Shown in pieces: positions 44,501 through 49,797 of a DNA stretch of 64,000 bases. A program made the translations under genes and the position numbers. The notes beneath the pieces were generated by a model. It had not been told where the DNA came from. It did no database searches and worked only from the letters and a program-made list of their open reading frames with translations. Within the stretch, counting starts at the first letter, position 1; each line of letters starts with the position of its first letter. The DNA comes from Pseudomonas sp. 8O (GTDB lineage Bacteria; Pseudomonadota; Gammaproteobacteria; Pseudomonadales; Pseudomonadaceae), in the NCBI RefSeq assembly GCF_902506495.1, contig NZ_LR733267.1:186001-250000 (forward strand), read 5' to 3'.

Positions 44501-45566
44501 TGGCCAGCACGATCTTGCGCCCCGGCATGGGCGCGAAAATCTTCTGCTGCTCGGCCGGCGTCAGCCGTGCATACAGTGGCAGCACCTCGGTAAAACGCAG
44601 GTTGGCCTTGCGCAGCACCTCCGCCGCTTCGCGAATCTCGCGCTCGCCGGGCAGGAACACCAGCACGTCGCCGGGCCGCTGGCCCACGCTGCGCTCGTGC
44701 TCGGTGATTTCGTCCAGCGCAGCGAGAATGCCCTGGTCGATGGACAGGTCATCGAGCAGACGCTCGCCCTCCTCGTCCACCTCGGCCGCCAGCGGGCGGT
44801 ACCAGGTCTCCACCGGATAGGTGCGACCGGACACCTCGATGATCGGCGCTCCCGGGAGGCCGGCCCCGCTGAAGTGTTTGCTGAACCGCTCCAGATCGAT
44901 GGTCGCCGAGGTGATGATCAGCTTCAGATCGGGGCGGCGCGGCAGCAGGGTCTTCAGGTAGCCAAGCAGGAAGTCGATGTTCAGCGAACGCTCGTGCGCC
45001 TCGTCGACGATGATGGTGTCGTACTTTTCCAGAAAGCGGTCGTGCTGGGTTTCGGCGAGCAGGATGCCGTCGGTCATCAGCTTGATCAGCGTGCCGTCCT
45101 TGCTCTGATCCTCGAAACGCACCTGATAGCCGACCAGCTCGCCCAGCGGCGTACCGATTTCCTCGGCCACCCTCGTCGCCACACTGCGCGCCGCCAGGCG
45201 GCGCGGCTGCGTGTGACCGATCAGGCCATGCACGCCCCGGCCAATCTCCAGGCAGATCTTCGGCAACTGCGTGGTCTTGCCCGAACCGGTCTCACCGGCA
45301 ATCACCACCACCTGGCTCTTCTCCAGCGCGGCCTTGATCTCGTCGCGCTTGGCAGCAATCGGCAGCGCATCGTCGTAACGCATCGCCGGAATGCTGCTAC
45401 GCCGCGCAGCCACCTTGTCGCTGGACGCCTGAAAACGCGCCAGCCACTGCGCCAGCTTGGCCTCATCGGGCTGCTTCTGCAGCTCATGCAACTGCCGACG
45501 CAAGCGATGACGCTCGGCGATCATGACGTGGTCGAGGTTGTGCTGCAGCGTGGCGAGGTCAGTCAT
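41508..45566 (-). CDS. hrpA: ATP-dependent RNA helicase HrpA
   Basis: The 1,352-residue DEAH-box helicase has Walker A GETGSGKT (91-98), DEAH (188-191), the SAT motif in ITSATIDLERFSKHF, and motif VI QRKGRCGRVEPG, then the HrpA-specific long C-terminal region (DUF3418). HrpA rescues stalled ribosomes on mRNA in E. coli. It is about 50 residues longer than usual. Part of this, residues about 619-638, is encoded by a REP palindrome lying in frame (43653-43711). The gene is probably transcribed alone. Confidence 0.93.
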   Translation of the reverse strand: MTDLATLQHNLDHVMIAERHRLRRQLHELQKQPDEAKLAQWLARFQASSDKVAARRSSIPAMRYDDALPIAAKRDEIKAALEKSQVVVIAGETGSGKTTQLPKICLEIGRGVHGLIGHTQPRRLAARSVATRVAEEIGTPLGELVGYQVRFEDQSKDGTLIKLMTDGILLAETQHDRFLEKYDTIIVDEAHERSLNIDFLLGYLKTLLPRRPDLKLIITSATIDLERFSKHFSGAGLPGAPIIEVSGRTYPVETWYRPLAAEVDEEGERLLDDLSIDQGILAALDEITEHERSVGQRPGDVLVFLPGEREIREAAEVLRKANLRFTEVLPLYARLTPAEQQKIFAPMPGRKIVLATNVAETSLTVPGIRYVIDSGTARISRYSYRAKVQRLPIEPVSQASANQRKGRCGRVEPGICIRLYSEEDFLGRPTFTDPEILRTNLAAVILQMLHLRLGSIEDFPFIEPPDGKAISDGFNLLQELSAVNRESQLTPLGRQLARLPIDPRLGRMVLEGAKQGSLEEILIVAAALSVQDPRERPMDRQQAADQAHAQWKDVDSDFAALINLWRGFEEKRQELGSNPLRTWCKKNFLNYMRLREWRDAHRQLVLIARDLQLSGNASRRSPLAGDDGHADRRQAGSYNEPVAPTKDTRVNAIARQQAEASEAAVRAKNYAAVHKAILAGLLSQIGQKTEEGDYLGARQRRFWIHPSSVIGRKKPNWVMAAELVETTKLFARMVAKIEPDWIEPLAAHLVKKNHLEPHWEKKRGQVVAFEQITLYGMIIVGRRPVHYGPIDPQVSREMFIREGLVRGEINSRVRCLTANRQLLERLDELEAKSRRRDILADEETLFGYYDARIPQDIYQAASFESWYKKGSATDAQLLIMREEDALARDAKEVTAAQYPDTLHIGELQLPLSYHFEPNHPRDGVTLRVPAPLLPQLQPERLEWLVPGLLEAKCIALVRGLPKALRKNFVPVPDFVGAALDKLVFGQGSLPQALGHELLRMTGARVSDEAWAEAAESIESHLKMNIEVVDARGKFLGEGRDLAELTARFAEASQAALAIPQQSDKPKTVEAKAFAEVAEKAQQKIAGLSMTVYPALVEEAGVVKEGRFPTQAEADFQHRRALQRLLLQQLAEQAKFLRGKLPGLTELGLLYRDIGRVDALVEDILLASLDACILDGEATLPRDGAALAQLAERKRGDWTAHAERIARLVLEILKLNHSLQKRFKGKIDLAQAMALNDIKQQLANLVYAGFVRETPGEWLKEIPRYLKAIEQRLDKVGAQVQRDRVWTGELSGYWEQYQARTGKHAQEGKRDPQLMLYRWMLEEYRVSLFAQQLGTKMAVSDKRLSKQWTLVEG
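43653..43711. repeat. REP element inside hrpA
   Basis: GTAGGAGCCGGCTTGCCGGCGAT and ATCGCCCGCAAGCGGGCTCCTAC face each other over a short spacer. The same family occurs in intergenic DNA at 56356-56415. Here it lies within hrpA without breaking the frame. Confidence 0.85.
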
Positions 45567-45736
45567 CTGGATCGAGGCAATCAGGGCAAAGGCGGGATTG
45601 TCGCAGATTACGGTGTGAGGCGGGCAGGCTATACCGCAGCGGAAGAGCTTGAGGGGCGGCAGCTATCGGCCAGAAGCTGCCTATCGGAGCGGCCAGGATC
45701 ATGGATGAGCAGCGCCTCTAATATCCAATAAGCCGA

Positions 45737-47314
45737 CTAAGTTGGACATCCGGCCAAGACCCAAGTACACACCCATTTATCCGTATGAGTTAAGGATGGA
45801 TTTTGCTTAATAAATTTTAAATATTTTTCAGCTTCATCCTTTGACAATATATTGAGCGCATGGATGTAGGCTCTCCTATCCCACGATGCTGAAGTCAAAA
45901 CTTTCTGCTTCGCCTCTTTTGCCCATGCAATGTTTCCTTCCAGTAAGGCAGCTGCGGCCGCGCTGGTAGGTGTGCCTTGATAGACATAACGTCGAATGTT
46001 TTGATCGGATAGAAACTGTGCATCACGGGTGAAAAGCCACTCCATCCAAACCCTCATGCTTCGATTGCTTATTCTGTTGGTTTGGCACAGGGTTGATAGT
46101 AGCGGCAAAATCTCTTTAATTTCTGCTGCTGGCAAGGAAGCCAAGTACAGGCAAACGTCATTGATCACGGGCTTGTAAAACTCTATGTCCTCTAGTATAG
46201 GTTTCGCTATCTCAGATACTTGTCCATGCTTAGCCCTTCTAATGATGGCTCTCAAGACAGCGAGATCTACATAGCCAAAATTCCGAACCCTTAAAAGGGC
46301 ATCCAACAATGATGCTCCTAGATCTTCGCTATCATCGTCTTCGTCGTCGTTTCCCTCGCAATACTGCCCGTATTCGTCATATTCCTGGTGGTCTTCGTAC
46401 TCATTATCCTGTTCTGATTCATATGTGCCATATTGGTTTCCAGCCTCAATTTCATTCAGGATATCAAGCTTATCCATTTGATACTGATTTTGAAGCTCTT
46501 CTTGTAAAAACTGAGCGGACGATCTAATGGAGGTTTTCTCTGAAACCAGACCCAGCCTGTGTTGGTCGTGGAGATAAACCACAAGATTTTCAAGAATCTC
46601 TGAAAGCTGCTCCTCCGAATCCGAAAATATACGTATATCGTCTACATAACGAACATGTTCGACGTGGTGATTGGATATGAATTGGTCAACATCAAGAAGA
46701 ATTGCTTCGGCCAAAATTATTGAGGCTGCAGGCCCTACCGGTATGCCTTGAGATGCTTTGTTATTTAGTCGAGACAAGAAACTCTCGATCTCCCTGCCAG
46801 CGCCAGCAGGCGCTCCGACCGAGTCAATTACGTTGCCTACTCGATGGAGATATATTTGATTATAGAAATCACTAATATCTGTAGAAAGCACATATTCATA
46901 AACCCCTCCCAGCCTCTCACAGCTTTCTCTATACGCAGGAAAGCCAGACCCCTTCGAGAAATAACTATTTTCATCAACTTCAATTCGGTAGGAGCATGCA
47001 ATGGATGGTAGCATCCGCGAACTTTCTATTTTTTCGGCCACCAGATAAGTCAGGGCTGTATATATTAGTGAGTCTAAGGGTTCAAGCTGATGAACAATTC
47101 GGTAGCCTCCACGTGCCTTAGCCCAGGGAAGAACTCTCGGATTGCTAGTGTGCGCTCCAGCCAATGATGCAGCGAGAAGATAGCTTTTAACCTCGGCCCA
47201 AGAATTCCATAATGCATAAAACTCAAAAGGCTTCGGATAAAAATCAGTATCGTAAAAAGCTGTTATATGATTGCGGGCAAATTCTAGAGATGCATCGGTC
47301 AAAACCACAGCCAT
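45737..47314 (-). CDS. orphan reverse transcriptase with acidic linker and helical C-terminus (candidate defence RT)
   Basis: The 525-residue protein has RT landmarks in order: YRIVHQLEPLDSLIYTAL (71-88, motif 1 region), catalytic STDISDFYNQIYLH (144-157, Asp146), SQGIPVGPAAS (188-198), and HVRYVDDIRIFSD (220-232, Asp225/226). A very acidic Glu/Asp/Tyr/Gln-rich stretch (about 299-332) links to a helical C-terminal region of about 190 residues. There is no maturase, endonuclease or retron-type VTG signature. This organisation resembles the unknown-group/Abi reverse transcriptases, many of which are anti-phage (family knowledge); the exact class is not assigned. Base composition is visibly more AT-rich than its flanks, indicating transfer. 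Confidence 0.85.
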   Translation of the reverse strand: MAVVLTDASLEFARNHITAFYDTDFYPKPFEFYALWNSWAEVKSYLLAASLAGAHTSNPRVLPWAKARGGYRIVHQLEPLDSLIYTALTYLVAEKIESSRMLPSIACSYRIEVDENSYFSKGSGFPAYRESCERLGGVYEYVLSTDISDFYNQIYLHRVGNVIDSVGAPAGAGREIESFLSRLNNKASQGIPVGPAASIILAEAILLDVDQFISNHHVEHVRYVDDIRIFSDSEEQLSEILENLVVYLHDQHRLGLVSEKTSIRSSAQFLQEELQNQYQMDKLDILNEIEAGNQYGTYESEQDNEYEDHQEYDEYGQYCEGNDDEDDDSEDLGASLLDALLRVRNFGYVDLAVLRAIIRRAKHGQVSEIAKPILEDIEFYKPVINDVCLYLASLPAAEIKEILPLLSTLCQTNRISNRSMRVWMEWLFTRDAQFLSDQNIRRYVYQGTPTSAAAAALLEGNIAWAKEAKQKVLTSASWDRRAYIHALNILSKDEAEKYLKFIKQNPSLTHTDKWVCTWVLAGCPT

Positions 47315-47680
47315 ACTCCTAAATTTTTACTAGTTTCCATTCCGCCCCATCCGTTACGGCTGTGAACTGGCTGCACACACAGCTCGAAGAGCTTAGCACC
47401 AGCCGATGAGTAACAGTCCACGACGTGGCGGAGATCAATTGGCCGGTTATGGCTCTTCCGCGAAAGCACTTAGAGGTAGCCACTACCCCGCCACAGGTAT
47501 TTATGGCTCAGATGTTGCCGGTCACAACGGGCTGCTGCCGGCCAATAGCTCCTCTCACCAACAGCTGCTATCGGTCGGGTTATCCCCTCGACCGGCGAGC
47601 ATTTCTGCCCCATACATAAGCTCTTGAAAAGGCACGCGTAAGCCACTGACACGGATTACAATCGGGTGGTGGCTATTCCT
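47315..47680 (-). other. 366-base non-coding gap upstream of the reverse transcriptase
   Basis: No credible gene is seen on either strand. It contains several short inverted repeats, for example around 47528-47600 (CCGGCCAATAG and CGGTCGGG/CCCTCGACCGG blocks). Several defence RT systems have a structured RNA just upstream of the RT, so this is where such an RNA would be. Confidence 0.5.
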
Positions 47681-48766
47681 TCAGTCGGCGACAGCATTCG
47701 ATCGCTGGAGAGTGTGTGTCGGATGGCGTCCTACCTGAAGCTTGTAAAGATGAAATAGGCCCTCCGGCATCGGCAGACCATCTTCGTAGTCTCGCCAGCG
47801 ATCTTCGGTAACGAACACCAGCGCTGCTGCTTGGGCTTGGGTATGCTCCATTGCCTCACGCAGAGCAATAATCTCCTCAATCTTCGGTTCACGATGACTA
47901 CGGCGGGGCCAAAGCCGTGGAAGGCTGCTGTTCTTATCGACAAGCCGAAGTCGAACGTCATCCCAGTCCAGCAATAGGGCGACATCCGCGCTGGTATCCC
48001 CGACGCGTCGAGCGCCAAGACCGATGGCTGACGTTGCACCAGCTTCCTTGTATTCGCGGATTGCCAGCTCAATTGCTGACCTAGCTCGCGCTACCTGGTC
48101 TTTGGACAAGTTGCGTAGAGCCATATGTACCTCGCCTACCGCTTGCACACTTCGTCGCGCACGCCGCCGAATATCGATCTTTTCCGGTTGCTCATCTAGA
48201 ACTCGGAGCTTGAAGTCCTTATCTGCCCTAAGAGTCACTTTGTTTGCATAAAAACTGACTGTCTCGACCCAGCCGTTGGCATCTCTCGTCCCATCATCGT
48301 TCGCTATAAAACCGTGAACAGCAGTAGCCTTATGCTGAACGTGGTTCCTTAAACTGCACATAAATCGATAGTCCGAGCTTCGGGCAAATGCCTCATTTAG
48401 CTCCGACTTAGCCACCTCGCTGAAGCTAGGAACCAGCCCCAAGCATTTGAAGTCCTGCACTACCTGGTCGGCATAGGCTCGCATAGCCGTAAGCATATTC
48501 ACGACATGGCGATTTGCTTCCTCTAGGATTTCTGCTGAATCCACATACCGATGTTGAGGCTCCACTTTGGTACGCAGGCAAATTTCGGTGAAAGCCAGTT
48601 CCATGGCCAGAAAATTACCAATCAATAATTCGTAGCGTTGCTCGAAAGCCAGTGCCTCGGACAACACGTTTCGTGCATATGCAAGCTCCTTGTAGCGCTC
48701 CTCGGAGATGCTCAGCTGCAAGCGTGGGCCAATAATGAATTGTTCAAGAATGTACTCAGCAGACAC
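47681..48766 (-). CDS. hypothetical protein with HEPN-like RNxxxH motif
   Basis: The 361-residue protein is helical in its first 150 residues and carries R140-N-H-V-Q-H145 at the end of that domain, the R(N/H/D)xxxH pattern of HEPN ribonucleases. The C-terminal half (about 165-361) is mixed, with no family recognised. It is in the same direction as the reverse transcriptase and 366 bases upstream of it. HEPN proteins are frequent toxins in anti-phage systems, so an RT-associated effector is possible but inferred. Codon use is intermediate between the RT and the core genes. Confidence 0.7.
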   Translation of the reverse strand: MSAEYILEQFIIGPRLQLSISEERYKELAYARNVLSEALAFEQRYELLIGNFLAMELAFTEICLRTKVEPQHRYVDSAEILEEANRHVVNMLTAMRAYADQVVQDFKCLGLVPSFSEVAKSELNEAFARSSDYRFMCSLRNHVQHKATAVHGFIANDDGTRDANGWVETVSFYANKVTLRADKDFKLRVLDEQPEKIDIRRRARRSVQAVGEVHMALRNLSKDQVARARSAIELAIREYKEAGATSAIGLGARRVGDTSADVALLLDWDDVRLRLVDKNSSLPRLWPRRSHREPKIEEIIALREAMEHTQAQAAALVFVTEDRWRDYEDGLPMPEGLFHLYKLQVGRHPTHTLQRSNAVAD

Positions 48767-48950
48767 TTTCCAACACCCTCTATTCGATCTTCCGTGAGCA
48801 TAGCTTCACCGCCAAACCGGTGGCTAGGCTCTACTCGCAGCGGCTAGCTGAATCACCGTCCGCTCTTGGCCGATAGCAGCCACTCCACACCTTGCCCTCT
48901 CCCCTCACCCCGCGCTACAGTCCGCCCGTCACGGTCAATCCCGTGACCGG

Positions 48951-48980
48951 GTGTAGGAACCCGATTTTTCACGAAGGGCG
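48951..48980 (+). promoter_or_regulatory. upstream target copies for the C4-type antisense RNA
   Basis: GTAGGAA (48953-48959) and CACGAAGG (48970-48977) are complementary to the two loops of the RNA at 49042-49121. A hairpin GTCACGG/CCCGTGAC lies just upstream at about 48928-48947. The same pair of words occurs again downstream of the RNA. Confidence 0.65.
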
Positions 48981-48984
48981 CGGT

Positions 48985-49015
48985 AGCGCCATAGCCGAGA
49001 GCAGGCGCTTTTTTT
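48985..49015 (+). terminator. rho-independent terminator upstream of the C4-type RNA
   Basis: AGCGCC (48985-48990) pairs with GGCGCT (49004-49009) and is followed by TTTTTT. In P4-type immunity, pairing of antisense RNA with its target promotes early termination, which fits this position. Confidence 0.7.
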
Positions 49016-49041
49016 GTGCCTGTTGTTTTCTCGTGCATTTA

Positions 49042-49121
49042 TGGCGGGCCGTGTGAGGCAGGCCTCGGCCTGGCCGGCGTCCTTCGTGGCCGGTATTCCT
49101 ACCCTTGCACGGTCCGCCACC
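49042..49121 (+). ncRNA. C4/P4-CI-type antisense immunity RNA
   Basis: The 80-base element is closed by GGCGGGCCGTG (49043-49053) pairing with CACGGTCCGCC (49109-49119; one G-T wobble). Its interior exposes TCCTTCGTG (49080-49088) and TTCCTAC (49096-49102). Both words have complementary partners upstream (48953-48977) and downstream (49129-49135 and 49161-49169). That is the seqA-seqB-seqC layout of the phage P4 CI and P1 C4 antisense RNAs, which silence early genes of the element. The strand is inferred from the downstream small genes. Confidence 0.8.
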
Positions 49122-49128
49122 CACGCCC

Positions 49129-49169
49129 GTAGGAAGGCTTGGTTGGCGGCTCCTTAATCGCACGAAGGA
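49129..49169 (+). promoter_or_regulatory. downstream target copies for the C4-type antisense RNA
   Basis: GTAGGAA (49129-49135) and CACGAAGGA (49161-49169) are complementary to the loops of the RNA at 49042-49121. The second lies 11 bases before a small ORF start, so pairing could also block translation. Confidence 0.65.
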
Positions 49170-49180
49170 GCATAAGGAAA

Positions 49181-49273
49181 ATGCACTATCCCCCTTTTAC
49201 CCAAGGGCTCCGCCCTGGGCTGCTGGCTGTCGTGTCGACTTCCGTTCTGGAGGTGCTGCATGACCACGTCTGA
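49181..49273 (+). CDS. short leader ORF after the C4-type RNA
   Basis: The 30-codon frame starts at an ATG preceded by AAGGAGCATAAGGAAA and ends inside the next gene (14-base overlap). It resembles the small leader/ash-type reading frames that follow C4/CI RNAs and whose translation is controlled by them. Whether it makes a stable peptide is unknown. Confidence 0.4.
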   Translation: MHYPPFTQGLRPGLLAVVSTSVLEVLHDHV

Positions 49274-49502
49274 ATCCGTCGTTATTCACTTCCCTTCGCC
49301 ACGCAATCCGCTACACAGCTTCGTCGCGAACGAATACCCCTTGCAGGCGGCCGCCGAATATCGCGCGGCCTTGCTGGCGATGCTGTTGCGGGGCTTGCCG
49401 GAAGCGGAGCTGGCGAATGCCACCAGCGCGCTGCTGAGCGAGTTGATCGTGCTCTACCGCCGGGCCATTGCCCATGCAGCCTGGAGGGCCGAGCATGAAT
49501 GA
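49260..49502 (+). CDS. small hypothetical protein, satellite early-region type
   Basis: The 80-residue, alanine- and leucine-rich helical protein has no signal peptide. TCTGGAGG precedes the ATG. It lies in the position occupied by kil/eta-type early genes in P4-like satellites, downstream of the antisense RNA, but I recognise no family. Its end overlaps the next gene by 8 bases. Confidence 0.65.
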   Translation: MTTSESVVIHFPSPRNPLHSFVANEYPLQAAAEYRAALLAMLLRGLPEAELANATSALLSELIVLYRRAIAHAAWRAEHE

Positions 49503-49797
49503 GCTGCAACGACACTTCACCCACCTGCCCGGCCATGACGGGCAACCGCCTGCCGAATTCGGCTGGAACGCCGATTGCCAGACGAGCTTCGACCACGGCG
49601 TGCAGACCGCGCAGGCCTGGCTGGACGACGCCAACAGCGGCTGGCTGTGGGCCAATCTGTTGCTGGAGCGCCAGCTCTATCCACCAGGTGCGCAGCGCCA
49701 TGCCTTCGAGACGGGCTTTCTCAGCCGCATCCACCAGCGCCTGTGCTCGCCGCTGGGCGGCGGGCATCAGGCACTGCGCACGGAGTTGCGGCTGTAA
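49495..49797 (+). CDS. small hypothetical protein, coupled to preceding gene
   Basis: From the ATG at 49495 the product has 100 residues, hydrophilic and Trp/His-rich (FGWNADCQTSFDHGVQTAQAWLDD, SGWLWANLLLERQLYPP). No family is recognised. The overlap with the 80-residue gene indicates translational coupling. No primase/helicase (alpha) gene follows, so the satellite-like region ends here. Confidence 0.65.
   Translation: MNELQRHFTHLPGHDGQPPAEFGWNADCQTSFDHGVQTAQAWLDDANSGWLWANLLLERQLYPPGAQRHAFETGFLSRIHQRLCSPLGGGHQALRTELRL

Follow-up and report, generated by a model that had tools for sequence, protein, structure and literature searches.

The locus examined here, part of a 64,000-nucleotide stretch of Pseudomonas sp. 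8O DNA (hereafter the window), raises the question of which kind of reverse transcriptase (RT) it encodes and whether that enzyme works alone. The RT gene occupies positions 45737–47314 on the minus strand as an intact open reading frame (ORF) of 525 amino acids with an ATG start, and reading of the sequence placed a Shine–Dalgarno motif, AGGAG, at 47316–47320 on the same strand. A Pfam scan of the protein returned RVT_1 alone (E 3.5e-15), with no PD-(D/E)XK and no HEPN match. The catalytic YVDD lies at residues 223–226 (46637–46648, minus strand), and Asp225, Asp226 and the block DISDFYNQ were invariant in all 29 rows of our main alignment (A1; the window protein and 28 relatives), and the RT motifs are intact, as an earlier sequence-only reading of this DNA had stated. 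That reading had also noted an AT-rich composition, and the gene has a GC content of 44.0% (41% at the third codon position), compared with 62.9% for the window and 65.9% (third position 86%) for the neighbour that it called hrpA.

We then assigned the protein to a family. The PADLOC profile Drt8, which we take to be the same as group UG7, spanned residues 5–520 with 466 bits (E 4.9e-140), and the next PADLOC family, UG20, followed about 350 bits behind at 115.1 bits. Drt8 was also the top PADLOC family in all eight diverse relatives that were scanned singly, and its profile matched all 29 alignment rows at E <= 1e-10. By this profile evidence, the RT is a new member of the DRT8 lineage, a known anti-phage family. 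The sequence-only reading had proposed an orphan, recently acquired defence gene of a possibly undescribed class; what holds is a defence-type RT that is an orphan and was probably acquired horizontally, and the undescribed class was rejected because the Drt8 match is full-length and far above the next family. No NCBIfam model reached its cut-off for the RT, the best being Drt4 (63.5 bits against a cut-off of 450); the group II intron model group_II_RT_mat scored 45.8 bits (cut-off 300) and the best retron model 42.1 bits (cut-off 235). An Rfam scan of 45500–49500 detected no intron RNA, and no intron, retron or DGR family was the best family of the RT, in line with what had been read from the sequence.

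The lineage is sparsely distributed. With the own genome counted each time, it was found in 4 of 369 genomes of the class (E <= 1e-20), 5 of 390 of the order (E <= 1e-30) and 4 of 398 of the phylum (E <= 1e-40), and scanning genome contigs yielded 31 loci, which range from Pseudomonadota to Bacteroidota, Planctomycetota and one ANME-1 archaeon. Thirty of 33 RT matches had no internal stop. Alignment A1 omitted three sequences with a stop within the matched stretch (L011, L015, L027), a duplicate (L013), a partial sequence (L017) and the loci fetched later or found by genome search; 13 of the omitted sequences were added afterwards, L015, L013, L038 and L110 not being among them. A tree of the 29 RTs, rooted at its midpoint for drawing, fell into two halves of 15 (clade A) and 14 (clade B) rows; the window RT and those from Stutzerimonas, Trinickia and two Pseudomonas form one supported group of five. 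Eight plasmid records had distant matches to the RT, and three phage records had matches covering 24% of the query; a repeat viral scan, now with the alignment as query, hit the same two contigs as before. One viral contig (L042) has an integrase on one side of the RT and a repressor on the other, and a 2026 study of the P. syringae complex gives 14% of DRT8 as prophage-encoded (PMC13182921).

The AlphaFold2 model built from the 29-row alignment (pLDDT 89.1, pTM 0.87) consists of an RT domain, a disordered linker at about residues 291–328 (46331–46444, minus strand) and a C-terminal helical repeat at residues 329–520 (45755–46330, minus strand). Both C-terminal features of the sequence-only reading are thus borne out by the model: the acidic linker, which it had put at about 299–332, has pLDDT below 50 at 291–313 and 316–328, and helices run through 329–520, a domain into which Foldseek and VIA-align matches also extend. 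In the model, the protein is an RT fused to a helical-repeat domain, as in class 1 UG/Abi RTs, which are described as untemplated and in some cases protein-primed (PMC13174585, PMC13275509; class definitions also in PMC12632851). In a Foldseek search against the PDB, ranks 1–15 were filled by DRT6, DRT4/UG15, AbiA, Abi-P2 and AbiK, and DRT9 (from rank 16) and DRT2 (from rank 30) came behind all five class 1 kinds. Those of the five that have been assayed synthesize DNA without a template. The class 1 alignments had query TM-scores of 0.41–0.63 and rmsd values of 7–18 Å. DRT4/UG15 and DRT6, which are single-gene systems (as given in PMC13213688), took the first four ranks; however, they share only 11–16% identity with the window RT and belong to a different PADLOC family (no family other than Drt8 exceeded 115.1 bits). 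With VIA-align 2, DRT6 gave Z 21.2 (rmsd 4.2, 440 residues), lower than the group II intron RT 6ar1 (Z 24.7 over 260 residues) and a DGR RT (Z 23.9), both matched to the RT core alone; in ranking structures, we gave whole-chain coverage more weight. Among the 50 rows listed, alignments of at least 350 residues involved DRT/Abi chains only. Because intron and DGR RT cores score higher and the class 1 alignments are loose, the fold alone is no proof of mechanism.

We next examined the genes around the RT. In an all-against-all BLAST comparison of ORFs within 4 kb, no neighbour gene occurred in more than two distinct loci, and the RT gene seems to stand alone. Apart from L012 and L013, Clostridium loci that are identical to each other, recurrent neighbours were pairs only: the Mrr genes of L010 and L028 and, more weakly, L006 with L012/L013, L007 with L015, and L014 with L029. 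When 97 of the 102 neighbour ORFs were scanned with Pfam and PADLOC (four of L013, duplicates of L012, and one of L011 were dropped), defence genes turned up, and among the 25 families listed several from Pfam, such as PemK toxin, Mrr_cat and ResIII, occurred in two members. These surroundings included Gabija GajA and GajB at L005:4811-7970, with GajB ending 24 bp before the start of the DRT8 RT, a SoFic match after the RT of L012, and LmuB matches on both sides of the RT of L007.

Published accounts of DRT8 differ: it is given a PD-(D/E)XK domain in PMC12596737 and is listed with a Cap17 (SLOG + PNP) effector in PMC10952713. At our locus, Pfam found no PD-(D/E)XK domain in the RT or the flanking protein and no PNP match in the two ORFs flanking the RT. 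Across 30 relative genomes (L022 excluded), some of them with short contigs, the nearest PNP match (PF01048) on the same contig was about 52 kb from the RT. Since no PD-(D/E)XK domain was found here, we filed the gene, by its sequence, as a solo DRT8-lineage RT and not as a complete two-part system.

Taken together, we favour, at a probability of roughly 55%, an anti-phage RT of the DRT8 lineage encoded by one gene alone, which probably works like class 1 DRT/Abi RTs and would carry out untemplated DNA synthesis primed on Tyr295 (codon at 46430–46432, minus strand). By analogy with those enzymes, the helical-repeat domain would drive oligomerisation, and DNA would be synthesized without an RNA template, its first nucleotide being joined to a hydroxyl of the RT protein itself. 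That hydroxyl would be Tyr295, on a linker whose flexibility could let it reach the active site much as proposed for AbiA, which primes at Tyr298 or Tyr303 in a flexible loop (290–310) joining its RT and helical domains (PMC11077055). Upon infection, covalently attached single-stranded DNA would accumulate or be stabilised by a phage factor, and it might either stop the infected cell or tie up phage DNA-binding proteins. The window RT resembles AbiA in its RT and helical domains joined by a flexible tyrosine-bearing loop; identity is 14–16% in the Foldseek alignments, and AbiA forms dimers and has a HEPN domain, for which the window RT gave no match. DRT8 is listed as mechanistically unresolved in two 2026 papers (PMC13213688, PMC13314766), and among the open-licence papers listed for DRT8 and UG7 we found none on its mechanism or priming residue. 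A conserved linker tyrosine in a minimal one-gene locus offers a short list of mutants for DRT8, which would show whether it belongs with the RTs that are untemplated and protein-primed, and whether linker priming in the manner of AbiA occurs more widely.

Tyr295 was proposed as the primer because it is conserved within a poorly conserved, disordered linker, at the place where AbiA primes. It was the best conserved column within residues 284–335, present in 25 of the 29 rows, the window protein counted (11 of 15 in clade A, 14 of 14 in clade B), and the next columns reached 17 of 29. The other four rows had Q (L042), A (L016), S (L018, a row that contains masked letters) and H (L024). Tyrosine was also found in 9 of the 13 added sequences, a set in which L117 and L124 have nearly identical linkers and for which the adding step, by dropping inserted letters, may favour Tyr-on-Tyr matches; the rest had W, S, S and a gap. 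In the 25 rows, Tyr295 followed the invariant Lys260 by 35 residues in 8, by 42 in 12, and by 41, 41, 43, 43 and 54 in the other five, and because the spacing recurs, the signal is mostly independent of gap placement.

The composition of the linker varies with lineage. Residues 290–328 of the window protein are 44% Asp/Glu and include six tyrosines, a number reached by none of the other 28 rows; each of its four nearest relatives has just one or two. The window protein and these four relatives have linkers of 25–39 residues with 44–54% acidic residues, and those of clade B measure 17–18 residues with 6–33%. Judged from these sequences, the acidic expansion is lineage-specific. As a tentative and rather doubtful extension, the linker may be a mobile priming arm that starts untemplated synthesis at Tyr295, the acidic tail of the window lineage might mimic DNA in the cleft and gate the enzyme, and the five further tyrosines of the window protein could be extra priming sites.

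Several other explanations must be weighed against priming by a solo enzyme at Tyr295. The same solo class 1 enzyme might prime elsewhere, for example at Tyr390 in the helical domain or at an N-terminal tyrosine as in AbiK, with the linker tyrosine only contacting DNA. Tyr390 (28/29 rows) and Tyr109 (27/29) are conserved above Tyr295, the priming site varies among class 1 RTs (an N-terminal fingers loop in AbiK, PMC11077055; Y666 in DRT3b, PMC13174585), and other tyrosines of AbiA are described as stacking on DNA (PMC11077055). We nevertheless consider this unlikely, since Tyr295 stands out from its surroundings at the AbiA position. We regard it as improbable that the RT copies a cis-encoded ncRNA, as in DRT2, DRT9 and DRT10, with which it shares an RT core. 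The 366-bp gap upstream of the window RT would leave room for such a template, but flanking DNA of 13 DRT8 loci shared only short BLAST matches (12–27 bp, best E 0.003), with no conserved flanks detected, and DRT9 and DRT2 rank behind the class 1 kinds by fold. Gaps are also short in other loci, upstream in L005 (24 bp) and L004 (62 bp) and downstream in L007 (50 bp) and L008 (59 bp). In L012, the gaps flanking the RT measure 48 and 37 bp and leave no space between genes for a template ncRNA, although an RNA that overlaps a coding region or lies farther away could still serve.

The remaining two explanations invoke a partner. One is a two-gene system whose effector would be the 361-aa protein encoded at 47681–48766 (minus strand), a possibly HEPN-like and prophage-borne protein with an RNHVQH (RX4H) motif by sequence reading and models. 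Its gene is adjacent to the RT on the same strand and AT-richer than the window, and its model is a helix bundle with the RX4H at a helix end, albeit at low confidence (pLDDT 64.5). It is, however, 366 bp away, and a tblastn search of the fetched flanks of the 31 DRT8 loci from the first scan, each up to 8 kb long but less where a contig ended, gave no match to it. The low-confidence model had no Foldseek match under E 0.001 and matched three HEPN chains only among generic helix bundles (Z 6.3–7.8); Pfam gave a sub-threshold HTH_31, a weak C-terminal HTH match. Relatives at 49% identity were found on two near-identical viral loci, and one such relative lies on a viral contig with a tail-protein match (seen in L111); the relatives L040 and L041 look phage-flanked by reading only. 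The 361-aa gene is probably not part of the RT system, given that it was not found in the fetched flanks, and we hold the two-gene explanation to be improbable. The other is that a two-part DRT8 system lost its PD-(D/E)XK partner and left the RT as an orphaned, inactive remnant; in its favour, 2 of 30 relatives (L010, L028) have an Mrr_cat gene (PF04471) within 0.8 kb on the downstream side of the RT. Yet the window ORF and motifs are intact, and 28 of the 30 relatives searched lack an adjacent Mrr_cat gene while most RT matches are nonetheless stop-free, which makes a remnant improbable as well. A further Mrr_cat match lay 9.6 kb away in L034, and the single PF04471 match of the own genome was on another contig.

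Returning to the site itself, the sequence-only reading had placed the RT between hrpA and a satellite remnant. The Rfam scan of 45500–49500 detected above threshold a C4 antisense RNA with a1/b1 targets, a P4-type immunity region at 48915–49124 on the plus strand (C4, 78.7 bits). This region lies upstream of the ORF at 49468–49797, which was a QslA homologue (Pfam E 2.3e-28), so the remnant rests on the C4 region. Relatives carry other DNA after the hrpA start: about 4.7 kb of different DNA precedes the QslA stretch in G376 and about 20 kb precedes the C4/QslA stretch in G369, and the 15–16 kb fetched from G380, G381 and G392 have no match to the RT or to the C4/QslA stretch. These comparisons fit a variable insertion site.

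Some relatives showed features of their own. The Mrr-type PD-(D/E)XK proteins downstream of the RT at L010:9934-10737 and L028:3208-4155, one per clade and each with a short ORF between, are candidates for a DRT8 partner. At L036:517-3003, the Drt8 RT is part of a frame of 829 aa, whose C-terminal extension comprises, by reading of the sequence, a membrane helix and an extra domain; Pfam found RVT_1 only there. Finally, the same genome as the window (G000) also carries a UG5-nitrilase RT (L002, G000:C5) and a Drt3a followed by Drt3b (L003, G000:C6), the UG5 and Drt3b frames running past the fetched pieces, which makes three DRT systems in one genome.
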